From the IMG/VR virus record IMGVR_UViG_3300037635_001390, positions 1 to 21,265 of that record: a stretch of DNA of 21,265 nt. The stretch is one strand, 5' to 3'. Made by a program: the position numbers and the translations under genes. Shown here in pieces: positions 3,021 through 21,065 of the stretch (positions within the stretch are counted from its first letter, which is position 1; every line of letters starts with the position of its first letter). The notes beneath the pieces are model-generated. The model saw nothing but the letters and a program-made list of their open reading frames with translations, was not told where the DNA came from and made no database searches. This DNA comes from a virus.

Positions 3021-3965
3021 TTATCCTTTAGCGAGTTCCTTGAAGATTGAAAGATCATCATCATCGTCATCAACATTCATTGAACTAGGAGCGGTATCAA
3101 AAGGGATATCGTCCGCCATCGTAGGTGATGGAGTAGGAGCGGATGAAGGCATTGATGCCCCAAGATTCAGTCCATCGTCTTCATCATCATATGCACTAGG
3201 TGCAGTTGGGCCAGCGTCATCCAATGCGAGGACACGGTACAACTTTTCCTTCAACTCAGAATATGATTTGAAGTTTGACGGATCCAGAAGGTCTTGCAAC
3301 TTGTGTTGCTTTTGCCATACTGATTCGATTTCTGCATCATCTTCGAATAGTGCTGATGGCGCATCAAACTCTGACTTGTCATAGTTTGGGTAACCTTCGA
3401 ACTTACGAATCTTCAGACGGAAGTTTGCACCTTCCCAGAAGTCGAATGGGTTTACTGGAGTCTCGTCCTCAAACTGAGGGTTCATCAGATCGTTGAGTTT
3501 ATCAAAGATCTTCTTACCGTACTGATACATGAAGACTTGACCTTCGTTCTCAGGATTCGCTGAATCCTTGATCACCAAGATGTTCGACACATACTTCAGT
3601 CGACGTTTCTGTTTACGTGCGAGTTCCTTGTCGGACTCCACACCAGAGTTCCACAGTTTTGAGTTATACTCTGATACTGGATCGTCTTGATTCAGTGTAG
3701 TCAGAGAGTTTTCGATATACCACTGACCTGTTGGCCCTTGGAAACCATGATCCCAGATACGTACAAACGGCACTTCTTCCCCTTGGGTTGGTGCCAAGAA
3801 ACGAATGATTGCAAACCCATTACCCGCTTTGTCACGAGTTGGTTTCCAAAACTTCCCTTCATTGGGATCTGCATATGATTTTGTGGTGATTTTGTCAAGT
3901 TGAGCATTCAACTTGTCTAATGACTTAGAACGGTTCTTCTTGAGTGCGTTAAAGTCTGATGCCAT
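3021..3965 (-). CDS. gp32: gp32, single-stranded DNA-binding protein
   Basis: This protein coats single-stranded DNA during replication, recombination and repair and organises the phage replisome. The basic N-terminus (ALKKNRSKSLDKL, residues 7-19) corresponds to the T4 region for cooperative self-binding. The OB-fold core follows, with GWY-like GQWYIENSL, KQKRRLKYVSNI and NPFDFWEGANFRLKIR. The C-terminus is long, acidic and low-complexity, ending near DDDDDDLSIFKELAKG, which is the partner-binding tail. At 314 aa it matches T4 (301). The protein has no cysteine at all, so the T4-type zinc site (one His, three Cys) cannot form. The ATG at 3965 follows a strong TAAAGGAGAA, with a tandem-repeat leader upstream. 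Confidence 0.95.
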   Translation of the reverse strand: MASDFNALKKNRSKSLDKLNAQLDKITTKSYADPNEGKFWKPTRDKAGNGFAIIRFLAPTQGEEVPFVRIWDHGFQGPTGQWYIENSLTTLNQDDPVSEYNSKLWNSGVESDKELARKQKRRLKYVSNILVIKDSANPENEGQVFMYQYGKKIFDKLNDLMNPQFEDETPVNPFDFWEGANFRLKIRKFEGYPNYDKSEFDAPSALFEDDAEIESVWQKQHKLQDLLDPSNFKSYSELKEKLYRVLALDDAGPTAPSAYDDEDDGLNLGASMPSSAPTPSPTMADDIPFDTAPSSMNVDDDDDDLSIFKELAKG

Positions 3966-4011: not shown

Positions 4012-4608
4012 TTATATGTCAAAGTGATCCTTGACCATAGTCTTGAATCGTTTCACATCCAACATCAAGAAGGGAAAGTACTTTCTTGATTGTTGTATTA
4101 TATCAGAAGCCACGTATTTGTCAAGCAAATTCTGCTCCCAATAATCAAAAATATTTGCGACATGGGTCAATATGGTAAACGTCTCCAAGGAGATCTTCTG
4201 TTGCAAACGCAACGTCAAAATCAAAGGGTGTTGTCCACCATGCGATATGAAATTTGTCTTCCAGTCGTCGTCTAAATTTTTGAGTTCAGACTTGAAGGTA
4301 TAGCCAAGCGCATCTATCTTTTTCTTCCAGTCAAAGTAAATGTAGTCATCCTCGACAACGTCTCGTATCCAAGTGTTTGGATTCTTGATCATGTGTGCGA
4401 GAAGGACGTTCTCATAGTCATCATTCTTTGACAGTTTTGCAAAATAATATGCATCCGTTCGCTTCTTAAAAGAGTCAAACGATGCACTTACTCTACCATT
4501 ATATTTATGATAATCGTACTTTGGTGAAGTGAAATGTCTCTTCATTGCAAGGTATGTTACGTATACCTTATACGACTCGTCGTTTATATATTTTGGTAAT
4601 TCGATCAT
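4012..4608 (-). CDS. gp59: gp59, helicase loader
   Basis: This protein loads the gp41 helicase onto gp32-coated forked DNA. Several stretches follow T4 gp59 closely: SYKVYVTYLAMKRH, then KYDYHKYNGRVS, then KKRTDAYYFAKLSKN, and later ISLETFTIL matching the T4 ISFETFILL. From the ATG at 4608 it is 198 aa, against 217 in T4. Longer in-frame starts exist (4623, 4626 and up to 4683), but those extensions lie deeper inside the preceding gene and have no counterpart in T4, whose gp59 opens MIKL as this one opens MIEL. The first 41 nt overlap the PP-loop gene. It sits directly upstream of gp32, as in T4. Confidence 0.88.
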   Translation of the reverse strand: MIELPKYINDESYKVYVTYLAMKRHFTSPKYDYHKYNGRVSASFDSFKKRTDAYYFAKLSKNDDYENVLLAHMIKNPNTWIRDVVEDDYIYFDWKKKIDALGYTFKSELKNLDDDWKTNFISHGGQHPLILTLRLQQKISLETFTILTHVANIFDYWEQNLLDKYVASDIIQQSRKYFPFLMLDVKRFKTMVKDHFDI

Positions 4609-5269
4609 TTTTAATTCCACCATCATACATTCCAAAAGCCCACTTCTTTTCCTTGCACCAGAAACATTGTTTGCATGGTTCATCCCATGGCGAAATGCAA
4701 GATACAGTTAGTGGGAATAGGTCTTTCATCAAGTCATATTCTTCATACAAACTTGCAACCCATTTTTTATCACGTCGAGCGAAAGGTCTCCGAACCTTTG
4801 CTTTCTTATTATCTCTACGTGGTTCTTGTTGATTATGGAGTTGGATTGGAGGGTTCTTTGTCACAAAATTAAGTGCGACTTGTATTGTCCCATCTGCACG
4901 TAACCCATCTTCAACTGGTTGGTGATATTTTGCCTTAGTCTCCCAGTCCTCTTTTTCATAATCAAAACAATACATATCGTGAAGTAGATGAGACTTTTCT
5001 GGTTGTCTTTTCCTTATCACCTTTATGATGTCTTCAGTTGCACCCTCAGAAAGTTTTGTTTGACCATCTCTCCATCTACGAATGTCCATACCATGCAAAG
5101 GCAAGATAGTTGTATTCGTATTATACATCTGAAGTAAATACAAACCCAACGCTGAGTCTGCACCACCACTCAACCATATACCAATATGGTCATAGTTGTC
5201 AAGTACTGTTTTAATATTTTCAATAGGATCTTCTGATGATCGAAGTCCTAGAGGTTCCAAGTTGGCCAT
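4568..5269 (-). CDS. PP-loop ATP-pyrophosphatase, QueC-like
   Basis: The PP-loop motif SGGADS is at residues 34-39, the site that binds ATP and releases pyrophosphate in QueC, GMP synthetase, tRNA thiolases and related enzymes. Near the C-terminus there are four cysteines spaced C-x7-C-x2-C-x2-C (residues 191, 199, 202 and 205), the layout of the zinc site in QueC (7-cyano-7-deazaguanine synthase). The length of 233 aa fits QueC. A role in deazaguanine chemistry is possible, but no queD, queE, folE or transglycosylase (dpdA) gene is visible here, so the substrate is open. The gene is inserted between gp33 and gp59, which are adjacent in T4. I use the ATG at 5269; a GTG at 5278, which would overlap the gp33 stop, is the alternative. 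Neither has a clear Shine-Dalgarno sequence. Confidence 0.75.
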   Translation of the reverse strand: MANLEPLGLRSSEDPIENIKTVLDNYDHIGIWLSGGADSALGLYLLQMYNTNTTILPLHGMDIRRWRDGQTKLSEGATEDIIKVIRKRQPEKSHLLHDMYCFDYEKEDWETKAKYHQPVEDGLRADGTIQVALNFVTKNPPIQLHNQQEPRRDNKKAKVRRPFARRDKKWVASLYEEYDLMKDLFPLTVSCISPWDEPCKQCFWCKEKKWAFGMYDGGIKNDRITKIYKRRVV

Positions 5270-5270
5270 A

Positions 5271-5525
5271 TCAATCACATAATGTTGTTACATCAAGCTG
5301 TTCTTCTTCGGGTTTCTTTACCATTCTAAGTTCAGTTGCCTCTCTGCGAATCTTTTCCTTCAGAATAGAGGACTTTTTAATCACATCAGCCACAGATTCT
5401 ATTTCCAGATTGTTCTTTTCTGCGTAAGTAATCAATGCGTCAATGTATGGTACGCCTCTTGCGATTTGTTCTGCAATAGCGTGATGTATTTTTTCTGGTG
5501 TTAGTGACACCACAGTTGTATTCAT
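5271..5525 (-). CDS. gp33: gp33, late-transcription coactivator
   Basis: The protein is 84 aa (T4 gp33 is 112). The pattern PEKIHHAIAEQIARGVPYID, then a helix with NNLEIESVADVIKK, then LKEKIRREATELRMVKK, matches what I remember of the late-transcription coactivator of marine T4-like phages. Proteins of this family link the sliding clamp to RNA polymerase and allow late-promoter transcription. Position supports the call: T4 has the transcription order 33-59-32, and here the order is the same with one gene inserted. The ATG at 5525 overlaps the stop of the 36-residue gene as ATGA, and GAGGAAG lies upstream. No gp55 late sigma factor gene is in the window. Confidence 0.8.
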   Translation of the reverse strand: MNTTVVSLTPEKIHHAIAEQIARGVPYIDALITYAEKNNLEIESVADVIKKSSILKEKIRREATELRMVKKPEEEQLDVTTLCD

Positions 5526-5632
5526 TTGCCTGTATCTTCCTCTTCATAGATGAATGTTTCTGGTTCCTCATCTTTATCCCATCTTGCGAAAAAAATTCGG
5601 ATTTTATATTTTAATCTTCTTAAGAAACTCAT
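5522..5632 (-). CDS. Small protein of 36 residues between an SGNH gene and gp33
   Basis: An ATG at 5632 opens a 36-codon frame that starts MSFLRRLKYKIRIFFARW and ends with a TGA overlapping the gp33 start as ATGA. A GAGGT Shine-Dalgarno sequence lies 8 nt before the ATG. The first 29 nt overlap the end of the SGNH gene, and the rest fills a stretch that would otherwise be the largest gap in the window. The N-terminal half is basic and hydrophobic, and the C-terminal half is strongly acidic (WDKDEEPETFIYEEEDTGK). Such charge-split microproteins occur in marine T4-like phages, but I cannot name this one. The two-sided overlap, the Shine-Dalgarno sequence and the composition support a real gene. 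Confidence 0.7.
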   Translation of the reverse strand: MSFLRRLKYKIRIFFARWDKDEEPETFIYEEEDTGK

Positions 5633-6374
5633 TTGCGATTACCTCATGTCCTTTTGTATTGGGGTGACTATCTTCTTCTGAGATACGATGTATCGGATTT
5701 CGATCTTTATCCTTCAACAATTCTTCCATCGTAAAACCACCCGCTTCTTCTAACCACGGCCACCCGATAAATTTTTCTTTATACTTTTTCTTATCGAACT
5801 CATTAAAGTAGGAGTTTCTAATCCACTCTTTCATGAATCTTTTATATCGTTTAACCTCATCAACGTTCTTGCTTTGAACCTTATAATGAGTGTGAGGCCA
5901 TATTTTTATAGCCGTACCAAAGTATATCGGTATGTTCCTATGAGTTGCAATGTCATTAAGAATAAACATATTTCTAAAGAACTCGTCAATAACATTTAAA
6001 TCTTCCTCATCGTGTATAAGTCTCCTTACCATCGTGGCCGCAAACTTTTGAGTTAACGATGACCACCTTTCTATATTCTGTATATTACCAAAAAATAGAT
6101 TGAATGGCAAGAGGTGTTCGAAGTTCCATAGATCAATTCTGCCTTGGTTCGACCACAAGACACAGATCAAATCGGGATTCTCTCTGTGGATACCATTGAT
6201 TGCCTGTTTCATAATACTGTTGTTACCAGAACCAGATATGCCCATGTTAATGGTTTCGTACCCCAAGGACTCACCAAGAAGTGTCGGCCATGTCTTTATA
6301 CCATGTTCGTCGTTAACTGGAGTGTTGTAGTTCTGATCTGTCCAACTGCATCCTACTGCAAGAAGTTTAGGCAT
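5604..6374 (-). CDS. SGNH/GDSL-type hydrolase-like protein, copy 1
   Basis: The SGNH blocks are visible. Block I is GCSWTD at residues 8-13 with Ser10 as the candidate nucleophile, a Gly/Asn block is NMGISGSGNN at 43-52, and the last block is EDSHPNTKGH at 234-243 with His237. SGNH enzymes cleave or transfer acyl esters on lipids, glycans or proteins. The length of 256 aa is usual. There is no signal peptide, so it should act in the cytoplasm or as part of the virion. It is a clear paralogue of the next gene (shared opening, VLWS(N/E)Q, GWP and the HPNTKGHE(V/M)IA ending). The ATG at 6374 overlaps the upstream gene by 8 nt. Modification of a phage-encoded glycan or lipid is plausible from the neighbours but not shown. 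Confidence 0.75.
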   Translation of the reverse strand: MPKLLAVGCSWTDQNYNTPVNDEHGIKTWPTLLGESLGYETINMGISGSGNNSIMKQAINGIHRENPDLICVLWSNQGRIDLWNFEHLLPFNLFFGNIQNIERWSSLTQKFAATMVRRLIHDEEDLNVIDEFFRNMFILNDIATHRNIPIYFGTAIKIWPHTHYKVQSKNVDEVKRYKRFMKEWIRNSYFNEFDKKKYKEKFIGWPWLEEAGGFTMEELLKDKDRNPIHRISEEDSHPNTKGHEVIANEFLKKIKI

Positions 6375-7131
6375 TGACGATTGTTTCCTTTGCCTTTAGT
6401 TTCTTCAAGAACTCATAAGCAATCATTTCATGTCCCTTTGTATTAGGGTGTGGATCATCACCAGATATTCTGTGTCTACCATCAAACCTTTCGGTGAAAG
6501 AAAACCCCTTACTGGTAATACCAATTTGCATAGGCCATCCCACAAAGTTTTTGGGATCTTTATCAAACATCTCAAAGTACTCACACTCTATGAATGCAGT
6601 TAACCATTCTCGCCACAATCGGTTTCCAACTTTCTTGCCCATCTTATTGTAGATCCATTTCGACCACAACTTAGTACCCTGTCCGTGATATATCGGTATA
6701 CCCTTCATGTCTGCAAAACTTTGAAGAATGTAGAGGTTTCTAAAATATTCTCTAGGCACATTTAAGTGTAAGTTTGTATTCACAAGAGAATCATAAACCG
6801 CCTGAACGTTGTATATCTCTGTAGTCTTCGGATCACACAATTTATTATACAGTGCAGAGATAGGCATCAAGTTATGACGATTGTAGAAATCCTCTCTATG
6901 TTGTTCTGACCACAACACGCAGATTGCATCTGGTGTATTGTCACGAAGATAGTCTACACCAATCTTCATAATTTTTTCATTACCAGATGCTTCTTTTGCA
7001 AGGTTGACGAGTTTCCAACCTTCCATATTTTCTATTACTTGTTCAGCCCAAGTTACTACACCGTTGGGTGCATAGCCAGGATATTCACTGTCTGTCCAAC
7101 TATCCCCAAGAGTAAGTAAAGTTTTAGTCAT
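6367..7131 (-). CDS. SGNH/GDSL-type hydrolase-like protein, copy 2
   Basis: This protein of 254 aa has the classical block I GDSWTD at residues 9-14 (Ser11), a NLAKEASGNEKI stretch that supplies the conserved Gly-Asn block, and DDPHPNTKGHEMIA near the C-terminus with the catalytic-type Asp-x-x-His. It is homologous to the next gene downstream over its whole length but clearly diverged, so the duplication is not recent. I take the ATG at 7131, which overlaps the bilin reductase stop by 8 nt and has GAAGAG upstream. An in-frame TTG at 7143 would add only four residues. Substrate unknown; acyl ester hydrolysis or transfer is the family role. Confidence 0.77.
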   Translation of the reverse strand: MTKTLLTLGDSWTDSEYPGYAPNGVVTWAEQVIENMEGWKLVNLAKEASGNEKIMKIGVDYLRDNTPDAICVLWSEQHREDFYNRHNLMPISALYNKLCDPKTTEIYNVQAVYDSLVNTNLHLNVPREYFRNLYILQSFADMKGIPIYHGQGTKLWSKWIYNKMGKKVGNRLWREWLTAFIECEYFEMFDKDPKNFVGWPMQIGITSKGFSFTERFDGRHRISGDDPHPNTKGHEMIAYEFLKKLKAKETIVNA

Positions 7132-7804
7132 TGATCTCTTCAAATAATACGTTGTTTACATAGTAGTCTTTTGCTTCGTCACTGATACCCATTGCACGTA
7201 TACTGTTGTGCAACTGATCATTCTTCTTCTGATTAATACAATACTTGTTGAGGATCTCTCGTGTAGAGAAATCTACCTGCACTGCTTTATCTTCCATGTT
7301 CTTTAGATAATAACATATTAATTGGGAAATGGCAAGAAGGAAGTTATCTGTTTCCTCACCACGCACGTTTCCGATTGCCATCATGTGGTCACTGAAGATC
7401 TCCTTTGCCCAAGGAGGCAGTTCACGTGGTTTCTTCCAAGTAAACTTTTGTGTCTGATCATTGAAGTGTTTACACATTTCGTGATCATCATGGACAACTG
7501 GAGAAAAATCAAAGAACGCACCACTAATCTTATTAGGGCCTGCAACAATATCACAACCAAGGATAGGGATGTCCCAGCCTGGCCGTGGAAATATATTAAG
7601 ATGTAGTAACCATAGTTTACGTTCTTCTAACAAGTCAATCGTTTTAAGATGACATTTTTCAACGAGATCACTATTCCAAAAATCATCTTGCCACCCATGA
7701 AGGTGTTGGAAGTGTTTTTTATTATCCCATTGGTTGAGGTATTTATCGAATTGTGTTTCGAGAAAAAATGCGAATCCTTTTAACTTATCAGCGTGCTCAC
7801 TCAT
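7124..7804 (-). CDS. pcyX: Ferredoxin-dependent bilin reductase, PcyA/PcyX-like
   Basis: The enzyme should reduce biliverdin IX-alpha to a phycobilin using host ferredoxin. The diagnostic segment is PRPGWDIPILGCDIVAG (residues 73-89) followed by ISGAFFDFSPV (93-103), the core of the bilin reductase family. Asp99 in FFDFSP aligns with the catalytic aspartate of PcyA (Asp105). This stretch is closer to PcyA than to PebS as I recall them. PcyX, a PcyA-like enzyme from uncultured marine viruses that makes phycoerythrobilin, is the best-fitting known relative. I cannot place the PcyA His88 equivalent with certainty; by ungapped counting the position is Leu. The length of 226 aa is normal. The ATG at 7804 overlaps the heme oxygenase stop by 8 nt, which ties the two steps together. 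The product bilin is inference. Confidence 0.85.
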   Translation of the reverse strand: MSEHADKLKGFAFFLETQFDKYLNQWDNKKHFQHLHGWQDDFWNSDLVEKCHLKTIDLLEERKLWLLHLNIFPRPGWDIPILGCDIVAGPNKISGAFFDFSPVVHDDHEMCKHFNDQTQKFTWKKPRELPPWAKEIFSDHMMAIGNVRGEETDNFLLAISQLICYYLKNMEDKAVQVDFSTREILNKYCINQKKNDQLHNSIRAMGISDEAKDYYVNNVLFEEIND

Positions 7805-8333
7805 CTGTGCTCATTTCCTCGAAAGATCGAAATGCAAAATCAAAACAAATTCTTGCTTCGTCTGCCATCGAATCATCAAGTAATGTACGCATCCCTTTGA
7901 TTAGTTCATATCTATCTTCGAACTGATAATACTTACCACTGCCTGGCACTTTCTTTGAGATCATCTGACCACCATGCAAGTCACCAAAATGACGTACATA
8001 CAAGTGTGCAAGAAGACGATGGTTGTCATTCTTAATGCTCTCAATATAGTTCACGTATTCTACAGTTGTTTCTAGTGCAGTTTCAATCGGTTGAAGATTG
8101 AATTCTTTCATCAGTTCATGCATGTCTTCGAAGATTGCGTTTGCACGAAACACACGTTTGTATTCTTCTGGTAGATCTACCGCACCTTCAAGTGCACCAT
8201 AACAAACCATCTGATTGAACAAATACTCCTGATACTCTTTTGGTGTAATATCACCACTCATCAGTGTTGTTGCGAACTGAGATGTCTCAGCCTTCTCATG
8301 ATGTTCCCACGTAAGTTCTTTTAAATTACTCAT
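7797..8333 (-). CDS. ho1: Heme oxygenase (biliverdin-forming), compact form
   Basis: This enzyme opens heme to biliverdin, iron and CO, supplying the substrate of the next gene. The proximal heme ligand is His12 in WEHHEKAE (the family H-x-x-A-E pattern). The distal helix glycines are in GDLHGGQMI (residues 117-125), matching GDLSGGQ of other heme oxygenases. At 178 aa it is short against cyanobacterial HO1 (about 240) and HmuO (about 215), but the core motifs are intact, so it looks like a reduced version rather than a broken gene. It starts with an ATGA overlap with the methyltransferase-like gene and ends in an 8-nt overlap with the reductase. It acts in the cytoplasm and needs a ferredoxin or other reductant, none of which is encoded here. 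Confidence 0.92.
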   Translation of the reverse strand: MSNLKELTWEHHEKAETSQFATTLMSGDITPKEYQEYLFNQMVCYGALEGAVDLPEEYKRVFRANAIFEDMHELMKEFNLQPIETALETTVEYVNYIESIKNDNHRLLAHLYVRHFGDLHGGQMISKKVPGSGKYYQFEDRYELIKGMRTLLDDSMADEARICFDFAFRSFEEMSTDE

Positions 8334-9049
8334 TTTCTTTTAACCCCTTGCTCTGTTCTCTGCCTCAAATTCAACTGACGTGATCCATTTGATCTCATCG
8401 ATTGATTGGGCGGTAACATGCCGAATAAGAAATATCTGGTGCCACGTTCTTCAGTTATTCCTTGTTGTTTTAAAATTAGATGACGAAGTGGCAGTTCTTT
8501 CTTAAAATCATCTATTGTGTCTTTACAGTTCACATGTCCTTCGATACCGTACATGTTATTTGATTGAAACGCAAAGTGCGTTCTTTTGTGATTCCAAGGG
8601 CATTTTTGAAGTGCCAATACATCACACATAGATTGCATATGTTCACACGATGTGTTTATAATTAACAGATTGTCGGTGTCGAATTCTCCAGACTTATATT
8701 TTGTAACGTCCACTGTACTGTAAACACAGTTATCATAATCGTGTAGGTTTGACGCCATATGTGTTGTCTGTTCGTCAATATCAAACAAGACTACTTTCTT
8801 CACCAAAGGCGCAATTACAGGAACGATGATAGATCCATACCAAGATCCAATAACTATTACCGTTAGTTTCTCTGTTAATATACCACTTTCTAGTATGGTT
8901 GTCAACAGTTCTTTTTTAGAAACAAACTGATTTGCAGAAACAGAGTCCCAGATATCACTTTGACGATCTGGAAACCTTTCTCCAAATTTGACTAACGTTC
9001 GCATATAGTCAAGATCTATGGTGTTATTATATAAGTTTATTTTTTCCAT
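8330..9049 (-). CDS. Class I SAM-dependent methyltransferase-like protein
   Basis: A Rossmann-type core is visible. Motif I is VIVIGSWYGS (residues 64-73), followed by VVLFDID (86-92) with the acidic residue that would hold the SAM ribose. A later strand is LLIINTSCEHM (128-138), a phrase I associate with methyltransferase-like proteins of marine T4-like phages. The length is 239 aa, and the last 25 residues are basic and polar and probably flexible. It overlaps the carbamoyltransferase by 13 nt upstream and the heme oxygenase by 4 nt downstream, so it is cotranslated with both. Its substrate is not evident. Methylation of a product of the biosynthetic island is as likely as a link to bilins. 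Confidence 0.65.
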   Translation of the reverse strand: MEKINLYNNTIDLDYMRTLVKFGERFPDRQSDIWDSVSANQFVSKKELLTTILESGILTEKLTVIVIGSWYGSIIVPVIAPLVKKVVLFDIDEQTTHMASNLHDYDNCVYSTVDVTKYKSGEFDTDNLLIINTSCEHMQSMCDVLALQKCPWNHKRTHFAFQSNNMYGIEGHVNCKDTIDDFKKELPLRHLILKQQGITEERGTRYFLFGMLPPNQSMRSNGSRQLNLRQRTEQGVKRK

Positions 9050-10635
9050 TTTCTAACTAACCAATTCCCTACCACAAGAATATCAAGTCCTGTTCTCTTG
9101 AATGTATCCACTGCATTCTTCGGTGTCTCCACCACAGGTTCTTGGCAATTGAAACTGGTGTTAACAAGCATAGGAACACCTGTCTCTTTATAGAATGCAT
9201 CGATAACTTTGTAGTATCTCTCATTAGTCTCTTTATCAACAGTCTGGATACGAGCGGTTCCATCGACGTGAGTGACGCCAGGGATTACCTCTTTCTTATC
9301 TTCCTTGACAGGCATGATACGTGACATGAATGGACTTGGTTGGTTTGTATCAAAATAGTCTTGATAATGTTCAACCAGAACACTAGGTGCGAACGGACGG
9401 AAGTCTTCACGCATCTTGATACGTCCATTGATAATGTCTTTGATTCTAGCATCACGTGGATCTGCAAGAATACTACGATTACCCAGTGCACGATTACCAC
9501 TCTCCGCACGTCCTTGGTGCCAACCAACTGTTGCACCATTCGCAATCTCTTTTGCAACGACTAAACAGATGTCATCAAAGTCCATCTCTTCTGCAGACAA
9601 ACCTTCAAAGATCTGTGGATCGACTTCATACTCATCCCCCATATAAATTGGTGGGATGTCTACCTCTCCATTGAGAACATAGTTAGCGTGCATGTACAGA
9701 CCAATAGATTGTCCCTCATCGCCAGGCGCACAAGGTACATAAACGTTATCCCAGTGTTTGGTTAACATCTCATTCATATAACCGTTGTATGCAACACCCC
9801 CTGCAACACATAGGTTGTTAGATGTCTTCAATGGTAATACAATCTCTTCAATCTTGTCTAAGGTAAACTGTTGTAGAGTATGAGCCATGTCAACTTTCCA
9901 ACTATCATTCTTCATGAAGGATTCGAAGTATGGATGATCTGGCCAATACTTACCTGACTGATTCCAGAACTCTTCAAACATAAGATGGAATATCTCATAC
10001 CAACGAATGTCGAACTTACCGTACCCCACGAGTCCCATAAGTTTACCTTCTTGAAGTACACCAAAGTCTCCAATTTTTGTCATGACATTCCACAACCAAC
10101 CCAATGGTAGATGATCACTTAGATCAACGACTTCTTGTTTTTTAGAGTCAACGAAGATAGAACGGAACATATTACCACCGCCATCGATGATAAAAATATC
10201 CGACTCTTCGTAACCAGAAGACAAGAACGTGTGCGCTGCATGGGCGAGGTGGTGATCAGTGTAATACACATTACCTTGTGCCTGATAGTCCCACAAGTTT
10301 TTTGGTCTGAACCCAATGGTATCTTTACCAAATTCATCGAACTTCTCAATAAACCTATCCGCACCGTACAGTTTCAGACCATTCAGTGTGTGGTTCATTG
10401 CGAGGATAGTTTCAGAGTCAGCGTTTTGATCAAACAATTCATTATACATGTCTTGAAAAGGAATTTGTTGATCCAACATTCTGAGATGTTCTGGATTCTT
10501 CTCGTTATATTTTATCCGCCAGTGACAGTGTTTACGACGATATGATACAGGGTATCTCTCGTACTGTATGTGTGTCTTTCCGTCGAATGTGTTATGATCA
10601 TGTAAGTTTAGGGGTTGGGCAAAGATCTGTGCCAT
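9037..10635 (-). CDS. Carbamoyltransferase, NodU/CmcH/TobZ family
   Basis: Enzymes of this family move a carbamoyl group from carbamoyl phosphate, through carbamoyl-adenylate, to a hydroxyl of a sugar or other small molecule. The N-terminal Kae1-like domain has the metal-binding HHLAHAA at residues 128-134, DGGG at 151-154, GGVAYNGYMN at 279-288 and GDEGQSIG at 305-312. The C-terminal domain has GRAESGNRALGNRSILADPR at 375-394 and VNTSFNCQEPVV at 491-502. All catalytic blocks seem present, and 532 aa is normal. The protein opens later than typical NodU (HDHNTFDG at 12-19), so the first strand may be shortened. It overlaps the radical SAM gene by 1 nt (TAATG). Its neighbours (DegT aminotransferase, radical SAM, methyltransferase) are the usual company in sugar or antibiotic decoration clusters. 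Confidence 0.9.
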   Translation of the reverse strand: MAQIFAQPLNLHDHNTFDGKTHIQYERYPVSYRRKHCHWRIKYNEKNPEHLRMLDQQIPFQDMYNELFDQNADSETILAMNHTLNGLKLYGADRFIEKFDEFGKDTIGFRPKNLWDYQAQGNVYYTDHHLAHAAHTFLSSGYEESDIFIIDGGGNMFRSIFVDSKKQEVVDLSDHLPLGWLWNVMTKIGDFGVLQEGKLMGLVGYGKFDIRWYEIFHLMFEEFWNQSGKYWPDHPYFESFMKNDSWKVDMAHTLQQFTLDKIEEIVLPLKTSNNLCVAGGVAYNGYMNEMLTKHWDNVYVPCAPGDEGQSIGLYMHANYVLNGEVDIPPIYMGDEYEVDPQIFEGLSAEEMDFDDICLVVAKEIANGATVGWHQGRAESGNRALGNRSILADPRDARIKDIINGRIKMREDFRPFAPSVLVEHYQDYFDTNQPSPFMSRIMPVKEDKKEVIPGVTHVDGTARIQTVDKETNERYYKVIDAFYKETGVPMLVNTSFNCQEPVVETPKNAVDTFKRTGLDILVVGNWLVRKWKK

Positions 10636-11447
10636 TATGCTGTTGTCATCCTATCAAGTATTTTATCCATCATCACTGCTTCGATCTTACTACCTCTGCG
10701 AGACAGTTTCTCTGTACACATTTGACAGTACTTTTCGAATTCAAATAGATCGAAGTTCATCATCTTATCAATGTTCTCCTGTGTCACATCAAAGTGACGA
10801 GAACCGTTGATAACTTTTTTACTACAGTGTCGGATTTTTTTCATTTCAAAATCAATTACTGGAACACGAGGGAAGAGAGAACACAAACGTCTCACCATCT
10901 CTGGTTCCTGATCAAATGTAGAGTAAGTGGGCGATCTTGAGTTATACTCTTTAAACAAGGTATTCTTGTGATGCAGTTCCATGAGTCCATGTTTCTTCTT
11001 ATATAATTCGAAGTTAGGAGTCATGATAATCACATTGTAATTATTATTTTCGTTTTCCTCTAGGAAGTCATAGTTGCCCAACTTCTCAATACGATCTTCA
11101 TAGAAGTCCAATACCAAATGTTCCACATAGTGGACGGCTGGATCTTCTAAGATGTGAGGGTAAAATTTTCTGATCAAACTGTTAGACAATACAACTGGTG
11201 TGAGATTAGGATACTTCTTAATCTCTGCAATCATCTCATCTAAGTTGTTTGTAAGTGCAGGTTCTCCACCAAGAAGATTGATTCTTGCTTTGTATGGTGA
11301 TAACCATTTAAGAAGAGGGGCTGCGAACTCCATGTCAATGTCGAGATTTCTCATCTCAGTTGTCCATGCAGTACAATAATGGCAAGATTTGTTACACGAC
11401 TTTGTCAAATAGAAGTCGATACCAAATCCAAATTTTTCTGAACTCAT
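10635..11447 (-). CDS. Radical SAM enzyme
   Basis: The [4Fe-4S] motif is C18-x3-C22-x2-C25 (SCNKSCHYC), the SAM-contacting GGEPAL is at residues 60-65, and VVLSNS follows. The reaction is SAM cleavage to a 5'-deoxyadenosyl radical that abstracts hydrogen from an unknown substrate. Near the C-terminus there are further cysteines (RHCSKK and KYCQMCTEKL) that could hold an auxiliary cluster in a cut-down SPASM-like tail. The protein is 270 aa, which is compact. It lies between a DegT aminotransferase (3-nt spacer) and the carbamoyltransferase (1-nt overlap), so it probably works on the same molecule. It lacks the distinctive layout of QueE, so I do not link it to the QueC-like gene. Confidence 0.85.
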   Translation of the reverse strand: MSSEKFGFGIDFYLTKSCNKSCHYCTAWTTEMRNLDIDMEFAAPLLKWLSPYKARINLLGGEPALTNNLDEMIAEIKKYPNLTPVVLSNSLIRKFYPHILEDPAVHYVEHLVLDFYEDRIEKLGNYDFLEENENNNYNVIIMTPNFELYKKKHGLMELHHKNTLFKEYNSRSPTYSTFDQEPEMVRRLCSLFPRVPVIDFEMKKIRHCSKKVINGSRHFDVTQENIDKMMNFDLFEFEKYCQMCTEKLSRRGSKIEAVMMDKILDRMTTA

Positions 11448-11448
11448 A

Positions 11449-12555
11449 CTATAATATTCCCACGATTGATTCTATAACGGTATTTATCTCATCGTCTGTA
11501 AGGAAAGGATGGATAGGTAGTGACATTATCGTCTGTGATGCGGTCTTGGAATTAGGCGTGTCATCTTTACGAAAGTTTATGTTATCAAAACAACCATGAT
11601 CTGAAAGTGGACAACCGTAGTGAACAGATGGTTTGAACTTCCCTGTTTGTTTTATAGACTTCTTAATAAAGTCACGAGTCTCCCGATCCTCAAAACGTAC
11701 AACGTACTTGTGGTAGTTGTGTTGGAGAACAGAACGAGGTTTTTGTTTCTGTATTTCTATCGGCATCTTTTTGAATGCAGCGTCATATAGTTTTGCAATC
11801 TCTTGACGTTTACTCTGCCATACCGTCATGAACTTAAGACGATGGGCGATAACCTCTGCGTTTGGTACATACAGTTTGGAGTTTACACCGTGTTCAGTAT
11901 CAAATGACTCACCGACTTTACCATGTCTACGTAGAGACATAACGGCATTTGCCTGATCTTTATCATTTGTCAAGAACATCCCACCGCCTGCGATACCTGC
12001 GATAACTTTATTTGAATTGAAACTGAATACACTACAGTCACCGATATTGCCTGCTTTACGACCATCCAAAGATGAACCAACAGACTGCGCTGCATCTTCT
12101 ACAAAGAGAATACCTTTGTCTCTGCACCATTCCTCAACTTCACGAGTGTCTGACATTGAACCAAACAGATGTGTCCAGATCAGTGCTTTGGTTTTTGGAG
12201 AAACCATACGTTTCACAGATTCAAAAGATAGGTGATAAGTATCCAAATCGATGTCACAGAACACAGGCGTTGCACCACAACGTGTTACGCAAGTACCAGA
12301 AGATATCCATGAGAAGTTAGTTACAATAACTTCATCACCCTGTCCAATACCTTTTGACACGAGTGCAAAGTATAACGCATCAGTTGCATTGGCAACACCT
12401 ACCGCATAGTAACGTCCAGTGAACATCTCAATGTTCTGTTCCAAAAACTCAACACTACCATCATATGGTTTTTGCATTGCTTTATCAAGTAGACCGTAGT
12501 ATGCGACTTCATTGGCTTTCCACTCACGATCCCATGCATCATATGAGATACTCAT
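11449..12555 (-). CDS. DegT/DnrJ/EryC1/StrS-type PLP aminotransferase
   Basis: This is a fold-type I PLP enzyme of the sugar aminotransferase family, which transfers an amino group to keto sugars, usually nucleotide-linked. It has GVANATDALYFAL (residues 53-65) near the PLP phosphate, VEDAAQSVGS (152-161) with the PLP-nitrogen Asp154, and SFNSNKVIAGIAGGGM (178-193) with Lys183 as the expected Schiff-base lysine. At 368 aa it is full length. The presence of this gene is the best hint that the surrounding island acts on a sugar. No sugar nucleotide dehydratase or epimerase is visible in the window, so the keto substrate would have to come from the host or from genes outside. The start at 12555 follows AGGAAG. 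Confidence 0.92.
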   Translation of the reverse strand: MSISYDAWDREWKANEVAYYGLLDKAMQKPYDGSVEFLEQNIEMFTGRYYAVGVANATDALYFALVSKGIGQGDEVIVTNFSWISSGTCVTRCGATPVFCDIDLDTYHLSFESVKRMVSPKTKALIWTHLFGSMSDTREVEEWCRDKGILFVEDAAQSVGSSLDGRKAGNIGDCSVFSFNSNKVIAGIAGGGMFLTNDKDQANAVMSLRRHGKVGESFDTEHGVNSKLYVPNAEVIAHRLKFMTVWQSKRQEIAKLYDAAFKKMPIEIQKQKPRSVLQHNYHKYVVRFEDRETRDFIKKSIKQTGKFKPSVHYGCPLSDHGCFDNINFRKDDTPNSKTASQTIMSLPIHPFLTDDEINTVIESIVGIL

Positions 12556-12558: not shown

Positions 12559-13434
12559 TTACTTCCTCTTCAATATATCAATGGCGTTAAACACCGCTGT
12601 AAGATCTGGTTCTTTCAGATCACGTTTATAATAGACACTACCACCGTCTACCATAGACGGATCTCTTGCGTAGATCAGTTCCTTGCCATAGTACTTGCAT
12701 TCTTGCAAAAGTCTTGGCGCTGGATCAAATGCAGTCTTGGTGTAAACATACTTCTCGAACAGACCACACAGGTTGTCAACTGGAACGTAGATGTGTTTCA
12801 AATCATGTCTGAATACTTCTAGTCCCTTCTGATTCTCATATACAATCACTGCTGGATCTGCATAATTTTCATACTGTCCAAGAACCGTATCATAGTATTC
12901 TCTGTTCGTACCAAGGAACAAGTGTTCACAAACTGGTTCGTGGACAATGTCTTTGTACAGAGAAAAGTTAATACGCTTCTCAAAATTTTCACCAACACCA
13001 TCATTATACACTTCTTTATCACAAATGTCAACAACATAATTTGCATTAAAATACATTAATGCAGCCTGATATGCTTGTTCTGGATGGTTGGTGGAGTAAG
13101 TCGAGATCAATTTGTTGCATAACTCACTGAGTATGAACCGTTGTTTCTCTGTGTACTTTTTGCGATTGTGGTACGGCAGGGTGACCATTGACCTGTTCAA
13201 AATGAAACACCCATCATGATCCCAAACGGTCACAATTTCGTCATCGAACATGACATGATCATAGACCCGATACTTATTGTTTATCGCATCTATGTAATCT
13301 TGTTTAGTAAAACCTTCGGAAGGGAAAAAGAGACACTTTGTCTCCATTCCCGCTTCGTTTAATTTATGTGTATATTCATAACTATAATGAAGCAAACCAT
13401 CAGAAGGTTTGCTTGTACAAAGGACATATAACAT
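12559..13434 (-). CDS. Unknown protein, weakly glycosyltransferase-like
   Basis: This is a protein of 291 aa with no motif I can assign firmly. It opens with a hydrophobic strand MLYVLCTSK followed by a Rossmann-like pattern (YEYTHKLNEAGMETKCLFF). Near the C-terminus it has FDPAPRLLQECKYYGKELIY, a phrase that resembles the donor-binding region of GT-B glycosyltransferases, where a Pro-rich loop and a Glu precede a small-residue stretch. There is no signal peptide or membrane segment. It is coupled by TAATG to the preceding 2-oxoglutarate oxygenase and precedes the DegT aminotransferase by 3 nt, so it belongs to the same pathway. A glycosyltransferase would make sense here, but that is inference from context more than from sequence. 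Confidence 0.55.
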   Translation of the reverse strand: MLYVLCTSKPSDGLLHYSYEYTHKLNEAGMETKCLFFPSEGFTKQDYIDAINNKYRVYDHVMFDDEIVTVWDHDGCFILNRSMVTLPYHNRKKYTEKQRFILSELCNKLISTYSTNHPEQAYQAALMYFNANYVVDICDKEVYNDGVGENFEKRINFSLYKDIVHEPVCEHLFLGTNREYYDTVLGQYENYADPAVIVYENQKGLEVFRHDLKHIYVPVDNLCGLFEKYVYTKTAFDPAPRLLQECKYYGKELIYARDPSMVDGGSVYYKRDLKEPDLTAVFNAIDILKRK

Positions 13435-14252
13435 TAGGCTGCGACTAGTTCTTCTTTATCCCAGTACTGTTCATCTGCCTCAAGGATACCCTTCTGTCCT
13501 GTGACAACAACGACGAGGTGAACTCTGTCCACATCACTATCGTTCTTGACCCAGTGTTCGTAACCTTGATTTAGGAACCACACACTTCCATCTGCAGGCA
13601 GATGCATTTCATATGTGCGTTTTTTACCCTTAGTACCAATCACTGCATTCTCATGTGTGATCAGTGGAATATGAATACGAACCGCTTTGTCTGTGTTAAT
13701 GTCTAGGTGAGGTTTGATTTCCTCTCCTGCTTTAAGAACAGCGTAACGTGTACGTGCAACGTGACCGATATTCTCTTCGATCATGTTAAGTACTTCGTCT
13801 ACGTATCCTTTACAGAACTCGTTGCGTTTGTCGTATAGTTTCTCGTCGGCAATAGGTGTATAGTTTGGATGAGAAGGATCACTGATCTTCTCCATACGTC
13901 TCGCAAACTGTTGAGGTGATAGATCAGTACCCTCTAACTGTTGTGCAAGGTTTTTGTTGTGTTTCTCTGGATCACCATTGAACTCTGTGAGACACAACAT
14001 CTTATATGCTTCACCACCGTCTGCGACGAGTTTATCTTTTCTTGCTTCCTTCTCTTCATCAGTAAGGAAATATTCTAAAAGGACACGACGAACAACAAGA
14101 CCATCTTCTGTGTTATTACCATAACTCAGTCCATTATACATGTCAAAGTTATCGTAACCAAACTCATAGAACTCTTTGAGTAGTTTATCGATATCCACTT
14201 TAAAATTTAGTTTTGCCATCAAAGGCAAATGTTGTCTTTTTTTCATTTCCAT
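13434..14252 (-). CDS. 2-oxoglutarate/Fe(II) oxygenase, aspartyl/asparaginyl hydroxylase-like
   Basis: The C-terminal double-stranded beta-helix core is readable: ARTRYAVLKAGEEIKPHLD with iron ligands His182 and Asp184, RIHIPL just after, then NQGYEHWVKN with the third ligand His233, and DRVHLVV with Arg243 for the 2-oxoglutarate carboxylate. That is a complete facial triad. Family members hydroxylate protein side chains or small molecules. The first 150 residues are helical, charged and unassigned, perhaps a substrate-binding part. The length is 272 aa. The ATG at 14252 has AAAGGG 7 nt upstream; a later ATG at 14219 (MAKLNF) is possible. The stop shares one base with the next start. Confidence 0.82.
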   Translation of the reverse strand: MEMKKRQHLPLMAKLNFKVDIDKLLKEFYEFGYDNFDMYNGLSYGNNTEDGLVVRRVLLEYFLTDEEKEARKDKLVADGGEAYKMLCLTEFNGDPEKHNKNLAQQLEGTDLSPQQFARRMEKISDPSHPNYTPIADEKLYDKRNEFCKGYVDEVLNMIEENIGHVARTRYAVLKAGEEIKPHLDINTDKAVRIHIPLITHENAVIGTKGKKRTYEMHLPADGSVWFLNQGYEHWVKNDSDVDRVHLVVVVTGQKGILEADEQYWDKEELVAA

Positions 14253-14263
14253 GTGTTTACCCT

Positions 14264-15142
14264 TTATTTAAGGCCACCATTCATTTCTGGCCATACGATG
14301 CTATTTATTCTTCGGTTAAATCGTTCAGGATCTTTCATAATATTTTCGTAATCTTTTTCGATTCTTTTAGGTACGATTTTATCAATATTATCAGGTTGAT
14401 TCTTGTTCCACGCATCAGACAAGAACATATGATTTATATAACTGTGTCGAGTCTTCTCATCTATGATATCCTCATAGTAAAGAACCTGATAGTCGATGTG
14501 GTTTGCATCTAATATATCTGGCAACCCATAGATGTTGTATAACTCTTCAAAGAAGATACCGACATGATCCCAGCTGTGATTGGAAATCTGAATCTTATCT
14601 TTTCTGTTCATCAGTCTTTCCACAAACTGCCAGTCCACATTTCTACCACTCATGTGTTTCTGGTGTTCGTACCAGATAGCGTAACTCTTCAGATGATCCA
14701 ATACATTTCTACGAAGGGTGATGACCCAAGTTCTATCTTTATAGAGTTCCATACATTCTTCTAAGACATATGTGATAGAGGAAGTTGCCTTCACATTAAA
14801 CTCTATACCATCTTCCTTCAACTGTCTCAACACATTTACCTTATGCATTGCACGATCTTTTTTCGATCTGAATAACCAAGGGAATACTTGTTGGACAGTG
14901 ATGTCATCTCCTTTTCTAACGAGTTGTAACTCAGTGTTGACTTCTTCCGCCGATTTCTTTGTGTGGAAACTGTAGTCAGTACTATAGTCTAAAAAGAAAT
15001 CGTTGAAGGGCAGGTTATCTCCAGTGTGACCACTCTTGAGATTATATTTCTGTTCTACGTGTTTTTTCATCTCTTGAAAAAGAACAGTTCCACATGTTCT
15101 CTCTGGACAAACAAAGAAAGGTGTAGATTTTAGTTTAGGCAT
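14264..15142 (-). CDS. Sulfotransferase-like protein
   Basis: The N-terminus has FFVCPERTCGTVLFQEM (residues 9-25), where PERTCGT sits in the place of the PAPS 5'-phosphate loop (PRTGST-like) of sulfotransferases. The second signature is TLRRNVLDHLKSYA (142-155), matching the LRR-N-x6-S-Y pattern that binds the 3'-phosphate of PAPS. At 292 aa the size is right for the sulfotransferase family. It would transfer sulfate from host PAPS to a hydroxyl or amine of a glycan, lipid or small molecule. The PAPS loop is not canonical, so a related nucleotide-binding role cannot be excluded. It starts in an 8-nt overlap with the dehydrogenase gene. Confidence 0.68.
   Translation of the reverse strand: MPKLKSTPFFVCPERTCGTVLFQEMKKHVEQKYNLKSGHTGDNLPFNDFFLDYSTDYSFHTKKSAEEVNTELQLVRKGDDITVQQVFPWLFRSKKDRAMHKVNVLRQLKEDGIEFNVKATSSITYVLEECMELYKDRTWVITLRRNVLDHLKSYAIWYEHQKHMSGRNVDWQFVERLMNRKDKIQISNHSWDHVGIFFEELYNIYGLPDILDANHIDYQVLYYEDIIDEKTRHSYINHMFLSDAWNKNQPDNIDKIVPKRIEKDYENIMKDPERFNRRINSIVWPEMNGGLK
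14302..14309 (-). promoter_or_regulatory. Late-promoter-like octamer (AATAAATA) before the 2OG oxygenase gene
   Basis: The minus strand reads AATAAATA inside the end of the sulfotransferase-like gene, about 50 nt before the ATG at 14252. This junction also has one of the few true spacers in the island (11 nt). It fits the NATAAATA late promoter form, but the octamer is expected by chance in AT-rich DNA. Confidence 0.15.
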
Positions 15143-15695
15143 GGTGTGTCAGTTCCTTAATATTATATTCATTCTCTATCATAAATTGTATTGTTCTTGC
15201 AATCACTTTGGGATCCATACATCGAGTCAAGACTTCTTTCTGTTTTTCTTCAGACCAACCGTCCATGTGTTTCCTTGACGTAGGGGTGTCTACAAACCCA
15301 ACGTTGTACATCATACTACGACAGGTGTCATCGTTTGCAGCGATCCAAAAACTGTACGTCTCTAATGCTTTCTTATCTACGTTATAGTTGAGAGAAGAAA
15401 AGGGACGACCAGATAAATGGTCTTTGTGCCAACTACCGATATTGATAATGGTCTTTTTCTTTTTCTGCCACCCATTATATACGTTCTTCAAGAGTTTAAC
15501 TTGTCCGTCTGAATGATATGCATTGTTAATCAGAACGTCAAACTTATCCTTGATATAGTTCGCAGTTGTTTCCTTAGTGATATCCCAATTGTTAGATCTA
15601 CTACCACCTTCTACATGATACCCTTGACTATCTAAATGATCGTAAATAGCCTTACCAATACCACTTGTATGACCAGTAACAAATATGTTATACAA
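15135..15695 (-). CDS. Short-chain dehydrogenase/reductase, compact
   Basis: An NAD(P)-binding Rossmann fold with TGHTSGIG at residues 7-14 (the family TGxxxGIG), a SRSNNWDIT stretch (32-40) at the cofactor-specificity region, and LINNAY at 55-60 (NNAG motif with Tyr for Gly). The catalytic Ser88 is in NIGSW and the Tyr104-x3-Lys108 pair is in YNVDKKAL. It interconverts an alcohol and a ketone or similar. At 186 aa it is much shorter than the usual 240-260, lacking part of the C-terminal substrate-binding region, yet the catalytic set is complete. It overlaps by 8 nt both the desaturase before it and the sulfotransferase-like gene after it. Confidence 0.88.
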   Translation of the reverse strand: MYNIFVTGHTSGIGKAIYDHLDSQGYHVEGGSRSNNWDITKETTANYIKDKFDVLINNAYHSDGQVKLLKNVYNGWQKKKKTIINIGSWHKDHLSGRPFSSLNYNVDKKALETYSFWIAANDDTCRSMMYNVGFVDTPTSRKHMDGWSEEKQKEVLTRCMDPKVIARTIQFMIENEYNIKELTHHA

Positions 15696-16485
15696 TTGAG
15701 AAAAACCTTTTAATTACAAATCCTGTCAAGTCCAGTTCATACCATCTTTCCTGATAGTTGTATTTTGCAGGGTTTGCATGGTGATTGTTATGGAGTGTCT
15801 CTCCCAGTGCAAACGTGATGATATTTACAAAGATGCTGTTCAAACTCTTATCTTTCGTCTCGTGGTTACGGTATCCAAAGAAAACAGGTATACCATGCCC
15901 AAATGTATTCTGAAGCCCAAAGGTGAACCTGATCATGAACACAGGCAGCAAATAAGCATTTATCAAAAGCGTTGGCTCTATTATACCAAGAATCAAAACG
16001 TATGTCAAGATAATAATCCAGTACCACTCATGAAAAAATTTCACTGCAGGGTCTCTCATCTCCCTTGCAATGTTTTTAGGACTGATGCCTTTGTAACTGT
16101 TGATGTCTTGAATAGAGAAGAAGGATTTCCAGAACCCCACGAAGGTGGGTGATATCGGATCGTCCTCTGTGTCAGTAAAGACGTGGTGTGCACGATGGTA
16201 TTGTACCCAGAATGGAATAGATCCCTGTGTGGACAATGTCGTTACAAGACCAAGAAACCAGTGTCTCAACTTTCCAGTCTTAAACGATTTGTGTCCAAAG
16301 TATCGATGCAACCCTGCAGACGAACCCAACATAGTAATGAAGAACACACCAACAAGAAATGCAGGCAGACTGAACGTCGAAGGATAGACCAAGACAAACG
16401 GAACGGAAGCCCAACTAAGATATTGGACTCCCCTCAGTAATTTTATGTTATGAAAAGACTTAACCTGCGCCAAAATGGTTCTCAT
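15688..16485 (-). CDS. Membrane fatty-acid desaturase, delta-9 type (first of two)
   Basis: This is a di-iron integral membrane desaturase that would introduce a cis double bond into a fatty acyl chain. The three His boxes are HRYFGH (residues 60-65), HRAHH (97-101) and HNNHH (232-236). The additional Asn193 and His197 in NTFGH match the N-x3-H ligand pair of stearoyl-CoA desaturase, so the metal site looks complete. Hydrophobic stretches near 20-55, 75-95, 154-185 and 215-230 fit the usual four membrane helices. At 265 aa it is compact. The start at 16485 lies 26 nt inside the preceding TauD-like gene. It needs a host electron donor. Confidence 0.93.
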   Translation of the reverse strand: MRTILAQVKSFHNIKLLRGVQYLSWASVPFVLVYPSTFSLPAFLVGVFFITMLGSSAGLHRYFGHKSFKTGKLRHWFLGLVTTLSTQGSIPFWVQYHRAHHVFTDTEDDPISPTFVGFWKSFFSIQDINSYKGISPKNIAREMRDPAVKFFHEWYWIIILTYVLILGIIEPTLLINAYLLPVFMIRFTFGLQNTFGHGIPVFFGYRNHETKDKSLNSIFVNIITFALGETLHNNHHANPAKYNYQERWYELDLTGFVIKRFFSIV

Positions 16486-20423: not shown

Positions 20424-21065
20424 TTAATCTCTCACAAATAATTTTTCAGCTAACCATCCACCAGTATCCCACTTGTGTAGTCTTACACGTTTGGAATTCT
20501 CGTGGTGATTCTTGTGATACCCTTCTCCAGCGATAAAGAAATTTAACCAAGGGACATTTGCGCCTCCCTCAGTTCGATGTCCGATTGTATTCAACAAACC
20601 AAATCCGACTTTCGCAAAGATGAATGGAACAAGTGCATATGCCACCCAGAAGTAAGGACTGATTAGAAACGCAACAACGTTATGTGCGATAAGAATTTTT
20701 AAATGATGATTGTGAAAGAAAACAAGTCTAGGGTTTGCAAACAAATCTTTTGCATACTTTGTTGGTATGCTTGGGATGTCCCATATTGTCAATAGTACTT
20801 TCCAAAACCCTACATGCTTTGCACTGTGTGGGTCTTTATCTGAATCTGAATGATGGTGATGCATTCTATGTGATGCAATCCAACCAATAGGCGTCCTAAT
20901 GTACGCCACAGATAACATAAACAAACCAACCCATTCAAACCAGACAGGGACTTTGAATTGTTTATGACAGTAGTATCGGTGCAACAATATAGATGCGCCG
21001 AAGTGGGAGATGATTTCACTCCACACTATCCCGATCAGTATTGCAACAACTAGTGTCTCAAACAT
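20424..21065 (-). CDS. Membrane fatty-acid desaturase, delta-9 type (second, shorter)
   Basis: The three His boxes are HRYYCH (residues 29-34), HRMHH (66-70, extended to HRMHHHH) and HKNHH (184-188). Asn159 and His163 in NTIGH supply the N-x3-H pair, so all expected di-iron ligands are present. Hydrophobic segments lie near 4-28, 44-64, 122-145 and 140-158. At 213 aa it is about 50 residues shorter than the other desaturase in this window, mostly at the N-terminus. The two are homologous but well diverged, which argues for different substrates or separate acquisition rather than a fresh duplication. The gene starts 5 nt after the stop of the partial gene upstream. Confidence 0.92.
   Translation of the reverse strand: MFETLVVAILIGIVWSEIISHFGASILLHRYYCHKQFKVPVWFEWVGLFMLSVAYIRTPIGWIASHRMHHHHSDSDKDPHSAKHVGFWKVLLTIWDIPSIPTKYAKDLFANPRLVFFHNHHLKILIAHNVVAFLISPYFWVAYALVPFIFAKVGFGLLNTIGHRTEGGANVPWLNFFIAGEGYHKNHHENSKRVRLHKWDTGGWLAEKLFVRD

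Follow-up and report, generated by a model that had tools for sequence, protein, structure and literature searches.

Why would a phage that may not infect cyanobacteria carry a pathway for making bilins, and with what kind of enzymes? The question is raised by two overlapping genes in the virus record IMGVR_UViG_3300037635_001390, whose whole 21,265-b stretch is called the window here. The minus strand carries the long genes of the window. Among them are a heme oxygenase (HO; 7797–8333, minus strand, 178 aa) and, overlapping it downstream, a ferredoxin-dependent bilin reductase (FDBR; 7124–7804, minus strand, 226 aa), both intact. We conclude that the pair is very probably a cassette by which a T4-like marine phage turns heme into a bilin, and a distinct type of the hemO-pcyX cassette, with a reductase that is not PcyX itself. 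A first-pass annotation had described an intact HO and bilin reductase overlapping by 8 nt, and the coordinates, the family scores and the overlap ATGAGTGA at 7797–7804, where the HO stop meets the reductase start, all agree. The HO scores 65.3 bits against a PF01126 cut-off of 23 (E 8.8e-18), and the reductase scores 76.2 bits against a PF05996 cut-off of 31 (E 4e-21). The HO model (mean pLDDT 92.4) matches HO crystal structures, the nearest being those of HmuO of Corynebacterium diphtheriae (Foldseek TM up to 0.85 by query). The reductase model (mean pLDDT 91.7) matches FDBR crystal structures, including PcyA 4qcd (VIA Z 25.5, 219 aligned residues, rmsd 2.4) and PcyX 5owg (Z 23.2, 177 aligned residues, rmsd 1.4). 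Because of these family scores and high-confidence models, chance is excluded for both gene calls. The best PDB sequence match of the reductase is PcyX_EBK42635 (5owg; E 4.2e-34), with PcyA second.

The Asp-His-Glu triad of PcyA is not complete in the window reductase. By alignment, Asp85 (in GCD) corresponds to the catalytic Asp105 of PcyA and His68 to PcyA His88. The third position, two residues past the conserved His52, is Lys54; the corresponding residue is Glu76 in PcyA and Asp in PcyX_EBK42635. The PcyA residue numbers are those we take to be in use, and they agree with the listed mutant names. Chain residue 63 of 5owg appears to be the Asp55 of the literature, by way of an 8-residue tag offset, so the residue that marks PcyX is Lys54 in the window. 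The model puts His52 and Lys54 on strand 48–58, His68 on strand 64–73 and Asp85 on strand 81–88, with the Lys54 side chain probably pointing into the pocket. Asp99, which had been singled out as the core residue at first pass, is indeed conserved in 322 of 322 reductases, but it belongs to the DFSP motif; Asp85, likewise kept in 322 of 322, is what corresponds to the PcyA catalytic Asp.

These counts derive from 331 reductase ORFs, from which nine partial ones were removed. The viral scan seeded by the window reductase gave 48 loci, and scans seeded by the window HO, by the PcyX of the isolated Pelagibacter myophage Mosig EXVC030M and by an alignment (A1) gave the best 80 of 136, 194 and at least 518 relatives, respectively. 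At the third triad position, Lys (K type) was present in 159 of the 322 scorable reductases, Asp (D type) in 126, Glu (E type) in 21 and Asn (N type) in 1. The 15 others are PebS and what are, from position and tree, probably cyanobacterial FDBRs of the PebA/PebB kind. Neither the K nor the D total measures abundance, and the seed chosen makes many D rows Mosig-like; the HO-seeded set, which is the least biased toward any reductase, holds 44 D, 27 K and 1 N among 78 loci, with 6 lacking a scorable reductase. Counting identical proteins once, as in all counts called distinct below, there are 88 K, 95 D, 14 E and 1 N proteins. Residues 50, 56, 66 (aligned with PcyA Ile86), 70 and 198 are fixed differently in the two main types (88/88 K versus 95/95 D). 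The His68 position holds His in 307 of 322 reductases and Asn in the other 15.

Rows were labelled K by one residue, and their falling into a single clade is an independent finding. A tree of 43 representatives gathers all 22 K rows in one group (100/100), and its sister is a group of six D rows and the N row (95/98). Both join a single E-type phage row, L048 (94/97), and these together with three Acetobacteraceae-type PcyA make up the AX branch (100/99), a lineage described, in the text available, as alphaproteobacterial PcyA plus phage PcyX (PMC10151467). A position within cyanobacterial PcyA, in a cyanophage genome, had been named at first pass as fatal to the proposal; the tree instead places the window reductase outside the clade formed by PcyA of cyanobacteria and cyanophages (100/99). 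The label of PcyA/PcyX-type reductase given there is thus sound as to the AX branch and misses as to the characterized PcyX clade, to which the Lys-type enzymes are sister. A tree forced to join the window reductase to the D and N rows is worse by 87.6 log-likelihood units and is rejected (p-AU 0.000143), the constrained grouping having been picked after the tree was inspected. The tree lacked PcyX_EBK42635 itself, which has the Asp, and the tree program flagged long branches separating the cyanobacterial PcyA group from all other rows. Judged by sequence, then, the window reductase is a member of a sister clade of PcyX and not PcyX itself. We found no report of the Lys-type clade in the open-licence literature, a scope that excludes the main PcyX papers and supplementary files, so it may have been known earlier.

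Two rows in this survey deserve mention in their own right. L048 (IMGVR_UViG_3300023184_000026, 297,258 b) is an HO-FDBR pair of a phage in which the third triad residue is Glu and the HO motif reads GDMYGGQ; in the tree it branches close to the root of the K and D clades. L307 (NZ_RMVE01000006, 188,235 b, assembled as Nonlabens xiamenensis 1Q3) encodes a PcyA that the tree joins to three from cyanophages (99/99), and beside it lie a phage translational regulator (PF01818), a Dam-type methyltransferase and 2OG oxygenases. A PcyA gene occurs in 1 of 149 genomes of that flavobacterial family, namely this assembly, and the contig is probably a cyanophage contig within a flavobacterial assembly.

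The HO of the pair is also altered. Both His12 and GDLHGGQ had been cited as intact motifs. The first stands as the proximal His, since every aligned HO with a residue there, cassette-adjacent or other, has His. The second, at residues 117–123 in the distal glycine helix, is not the usual motif: His120 replaces Ser or Ala and is the mark of a clade. Among distinct HOs beside K reductases, residue 120 is His in 76/81 and Ser in 5/81; beside D reductases it is Ser in 64, Ala in 19, Arg in 2 and Tyr in 1 of 86, and His in 0/86. Residue 118, which we take to be the catalytic Asp and counterpart of HO-1 Asp140, is Asp in 44/81 and Glu in 37/81 beside K reductases, versus Asp in 86/86 beside D reductases. 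By analogy, Glu at this position need not disable the enzyme, because the D136E mutant of HmuO was crystallized (1wnx).

In the HO tree, one group (98/91) takes 15 of the 18 K-partner representatives. The remaining three (L279, L285 and L294), all of Ser type, form a separate group (96/93), and the Glu-type rows are a single group of six (100/99). Judging by these groupings, HO and reductase appear mostly to have been inherited as a pair, but at least once the HO was replaced while the Lys-type reductase stayed as it was. Common descent of the linked genes accounts for most of the correlation between HO and reductase states, and to read it as co-adaptation goes beyond that.

An HO lies upstream on the same strand of 144/159 K-type and 116/126 D-type reductase ORFs, a count that includes loci retrieved via HO. 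In 13 of the 15 K and 10 of the 10 D cases without one, there was less than 700 b of upstream room. The genome sites of the two types were compared for distinct reductase genes with at least 2.5 kb of downstream flank, rows with less being left out, and with neighbors scored within 3.6 kb. Downstream of K-type genes lie gp59 (85/86 versus 0/69 for D) and gp32 (84/86 versus 0/69), while gp13 and gp14 together lie downstream of 44/69 D-type and 0/86 K-type genes. Neither gp59-gp32 nor gp13-gp14 was nearby in 25/69 D rows. Upstream, a ferrochelatase accompanies 12/70 D and 0/63 K genes. The two cassette types thus occupy different usual genome sites, which suggests that T4-like phages acquired or kept the pathway at two places, and this sharpens the standing question of why non-cyanobacterial phages make bilins.

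We considered whether the cassette is decaying cargo or no functional pathway at all. The triad Glu or Asp is lost and the HO motif is altered, as decay would have it. Against this, the reading frames are intact, Asp85 and His68 are conserved, the same residue states recur in 88 distinct proteins and the genome site is the same in 85 of 86. We regard decay as very improbable.

The phage hemO-pcyX cassette as such is already known, and the Lys-type branch with its altered HO is the part that appears new. The record of Mosig is annotated with both hemO and pcyX. In the available text of Wegner et al. 2024, hemO-pcyA/X occurs with valaS as a full or broken cassette, and contigs carrying hemO-pcyA/X are linked to pelagimyophages both through their resemblance to Mosig and through a gp13 phylogeny that includes isolates (PMC11480375). 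The first-pass annotation had presented its cassette as tying this kind of enzyme to a definite phage type; as a claim of novelty, its main one, this falls because the link to pelagimyophages was already in print. The same text describes a pelagiphage-like scaffold that carries FDBR, HemO and vAlaS along with a fatty acid desaturase, raises bilin use outside cyanobacteria as a question and discusses iron supply (PMC11480375). PcyX is stated elsewhere to occur in phages and not in cyanophages (available text of PMC13193486). A term search of the available text of the Mosig, Melnitz and pelagimyophage papers found no mention of bilin genes (PMC7892664, PMC9004378, PMC7029224).

Set beside these systems, the window cassette has in common with PcyX_EBK42635 and the Mosig cassette an AX-branch FDBR directly preceded by an HO gene of the same strand, the two overlapping or close. 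It shares with the cassettes of Mosig and other marine phages their place in T4-like phages with alaS sometimes elsewhere. It differs in having Lys rather than Asp in the reductase, His rather than Ser or Ala in the HO, a site upstream of gp59-gp32 rather than gp13-gp14 and a gp32 of a separate lineage. The window reductase is 29% identical to that of Mosig over the alignment (33.3% locally). Freshwater phage CB_2 (vhemO, vpcyA/X, valaS; Wegner et al. 2024), likened here by its description in the available text only, also has hemO and FDBR together and alaS further off, as in the larger contig described below. The PcyA of cyanobacteria and of cyanophages P-SSM4, P-RSM4 and S-SSM6b share the FDBR fold and counterparts of His88 and Asp105; they have Glu76 where the window has Lys, fall in a separate tree group and, for the three cyanophage proteins, are 23–26% identical to it. 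PebS of cyanophage P-SSM2 is likewise a phage FDBR of the same fold (VIA Z ~18), though only 13% identical, and PebS was not recovered at E 1e-5 by a profile built from PcyA/PcyX-type sequences.

Which phage does the cassette belong to? The whole window is 99.94% identical to positions 63362–84626 of a 117,770-b contig (IMGVR_UViG_3300006990_000013, hereafter G002), and part of a 40-kb contig (G001) matches 13,020 b of it at 99.96% identity. On the minus strand of the window lie the gp59 helicase loader (4012–4683), the gp32 single-strand DNA-binding protein (3021–3965), UvsX (1637–2698) and a gp41-type helicase (256–1674), and G002 adds gp43, uvsW and uvsY. The coupled HO-FDBR cassette in a T4-like phage proposed at first pass is borne out by these adjoining genes. 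The distance given there, about 1.6 kb to T4-like genes, is right for a gp33-like late promoter transcription regulator (5271–5525, minus strand; PHROG 254, E 1e-12); gp59 is at 2.4 kb. The G002 homologues of Mosig gp43, gp45, uvsW, uvsY, RNR and primase are 32–50% identical. Among the Mosig structural proteins tried against G002, the tail-tube protein alone matched, and capsid, portal, sheath, large terminase, gp13, gp14, gp3/15 and baseplate J did not; G002 is therefore probably incomplete. It carries four tRNAs and has a GC content of 0.40 (Mosig 0.33).

A gp32 tree with four isolates places the K-cassette phages (41 rows, including L045 and L047, whose reductase was too partial to score) in one group (100/100) that excludes Mosig, HTVC008M, Melnitz and P-HM2. 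The top gp32 match among 50,697 phage records is OM43 methylophage Melnitz (63.4% over 74% of the query), and 5 of the 2,416 matching records lie at 60–80% identity, with none higher. A megablast search of the 50,697 records returned no near DNA relative. The source appears to be a T4-like lineage still uncultivated and with no closely related isolate.

That this phage is a cyanophage whose bilin feeds host phycobilisomes finds some encouragement here. The gp43 of G002 is nearest to Phage C48C1 (44.7%, host not given) and then to many Synechococcus phages (~44%), above Mosig (39%), and gp32 matches many cyanophages at 47–56%. The reductase nevertheless lies outside the cyanobacterial and cyanophage PcyA group, and the top gp32 match is to a methylophage. 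The psbA/psbD family was found in 0 of 48 cassette records, mostly fragments but including K-type contigs of 221 and 195 kb, and in 2 of 2 cyanophage controls; with G002 incomplete, this absence is not final. G002 also encodes a 5-aminolevulinate synthase (alaS; 106838–108013, ~30 kb from hemO; score 553 bits, cut-off 338.55), an enzyme of the Shemin pathway, and this too counts against a cyanophage, although Wegner et al., in the text available, allow hosts of either pathway (PMC11480375). Given the tree position and the missing psbA with its positive controls, we hold a cyanophage origin to be very unlikely despite the gp43 ranking.

What would the cassette make? From family, fold and conserved residues, both enzymes are probably active, and the likely route is heme to biliverdin to a reduced bilin. 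HO would open heme to biliverdin, freeing iron and CO. The overlapping reductase would then reduce biliverdin with electrons from ferredoxin, and the conserved Asp85-His68 pair would handle protons during the reduction. Host ferredoxin is the presumed donor because no plant-type ferredoxin gene was found on the incomplete G002; PF00111 was present in Mosig alone among 50 cassette records, again mostly fragments.

Phycoerythrobilin (PEB) is the single likeliest product, a choice we make tentatively. The Lys clade could simply be PcyX in function, making PEB from biliverdin via 15,16-dihydrobiliverdin as PcyX_EBK42635 does, with the residue changes neutral. PcyX is the sister group, PcyX_EBK42635 is the best PDB sequence match and the Asp-His pair is conserved. 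The Asp that replaces Glu in PcyX reportedly has no part in catalysis, a finding ascribed to Ledermann et al. in 2018, which also speaks for neutrality. On the other side, residues 50, 56, 66, 70 and 198 are fixed differently and the partner HO differs. In addition, Wegner et al. (available text) ascribe the PcyA activity of the CB_2 enzyme to its missing PcyX-specific Asp55, which the window reductase also lacks (PMC11480375). We put PcyX-like function at a little short of an even chance. If the product is plain PEB, the finding reduces to one more PcyX-like clade. Bond choice by FDBRs is described as not yet predictable from sequence (available text of PMC13193486).

Phycocyanobilin (PCB) is the other product to weigh, with the reductase acting like the CB_2 enzyme and serving a host phytochrome. 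The vPcyA/X of CB_2 was shown to make PCB and load Cph1 (available text of PMC11480375), and both alphaproteobacterial genomes with PcyA-like genes that we tried (2/2) have a PHY-domain gene on the same contig. With PcyA Glu76 replaced by Lys and the phytochrome PHY domain (PF00360) found in 0 of 48 cassette records, mostly fragments, against 2 of 2 alphaproteobacterial controls, we think PCB unlikely. In Acetobacteraceae-type genomes (L308, G022 contig 14; L314, G027 contig 91) the FDBR lies in open frames of 414–465 aa, with a PHY-domain gene on the same contig. Such FDBR genes are uncommon: of 385 genomes sampled from that class, 2 score above the family cut-off, and 3 have a match at E 0.001.

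For the purpose of the cassette, direction of heme-pathway flux is the likeliest answer, although we would not call it probable. Phage AlaS would make the precursor, HO would free iron and the reductase would draw off biliverdin. We favor flux and iron release because alaS accompanies some cassettes (13/50 records: 9/29 K-type, 4/20 D-type and 0/1 E-type) and no acceptor was found; phycobiliprotein (PF00502) matched 0 of 48 cassette records, mostly fragments, and one cyanobacterial control, and did not match the Nonlabens assembly. A chromophore for a host biliprotein is a possible but more doubtful purpose. More speculative still, and to our mind rather unlikely, the K-type cassette would be a second phage heme-to-bilin pathway, in which the active sites of HO and reductase changed together and a bilin made by neither PcyA nor PcyX serves a use other than light harvesting in heterotrophic ocean bacteria. 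Whatever its product, a Lys clade with an intact Asp-His pair is a natural test of the role of the Glu76/Asp55 position, and the His and Glu changes in the partner HO are a test of the same kind for HO.

Several points weigh against the reading of the K-type pair as a coupled, active heme-to-bilin cassette. Two K-type reductases with at least 700 b of upstream room have no HO that we could find there. The genes are at least 150 b apart in 55 of 144 K pairs, and tight overlap is not general. Five of the 81 K-partner HOs do not have His at residue 120, and the 3 of 18 representatives noted above sit on another HO branch. Lys at the Glu76/Asp55 position, the HO His or, in some relatives, Glu at the HO catalytic Asp could impair the reactions. 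The activity and product of the Lys-type clade are predictions, and we know of no member that has been assayed. Finally, with alaS in only 9 of the 29 mostly fragmentary K-type records, the flux idea draws on a minority.

A conserved third gene between HO and reductase was considered and rejected, as the gaps of at least 150 b in K pairs hold several unlike ORFs. Inserted ORFs were seen in L018, L263, L302, L026, L030, L104 and L109. By eye, the K-type inserts include an ORF for a ~240-aa protein and short ORFs that are basic or AbrB-like, and some D-type inserts are a long ORF resembling a flavin-dependent halogenase.

Four K-type loci come from bacterial bins: L301, L302 and L303 (FZLS01000007, 23 and 45; Rhodobacteraceae bin Water_Bin34) and L304 (DGBH01000105; Bacteroidetes MAG UBA4009). 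In each, the K-type reductase is followed by gp59, gp32, uvsX and gp41, and they are therefore T4-like phage contigs, not bacterial. The available text of Wegner et al. lists a Rhodobacter-like sponge-metagenome bin among viral AlaS sequences (PMC11480375), and our guess is that Water_Bin34 is that bin.

The remaining genes of the window all lie on the minus strand where they surround the cassette. Directly upstream of HO is a methyltransferase-like gene (8330–9049; 38% identical to Mosig_00090), without a Pfam or NCBIfam match, whose stop overlaps the HO start in ATGA. Further upstream follow a carbamoyltransferase (9037–10635), a radical SAM protein (10635–11447; Pfam score only at the cut-off) and a DegT aminotransferase (11449–12555). 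This block has the gene order of its Mosig homologues at 38–56% identity, and the Mosig counterparts (64094–68321 for 9037–12555) do not adjoin the Mosig cassette. Directly downstream of the reductase is a gene at 6367–7143, similar to the next gene (5604–6374), which has a weak GDSL-lipase match. If the ATG at 7131 is the start of the former, as seems likely, it overlaps the reductase stop by 8 nt.

Positions 12559–18784 hold accessory genes, including an Asp/Arg hydroxylase, a TauD-like dioxygenase, a weak short-chain dehydrogenase match and a desaturase. The ORFs at 12559–13434, 14264–15142 and 17472–18071 had no family match in the libraries tried. There are two fatty acid desaturases in the window, at 15688–16485 and 20424–21065. 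The latter is 80% identical to the Mosig desaturase, far above every other shared gene compared, which suggests recent exchange.

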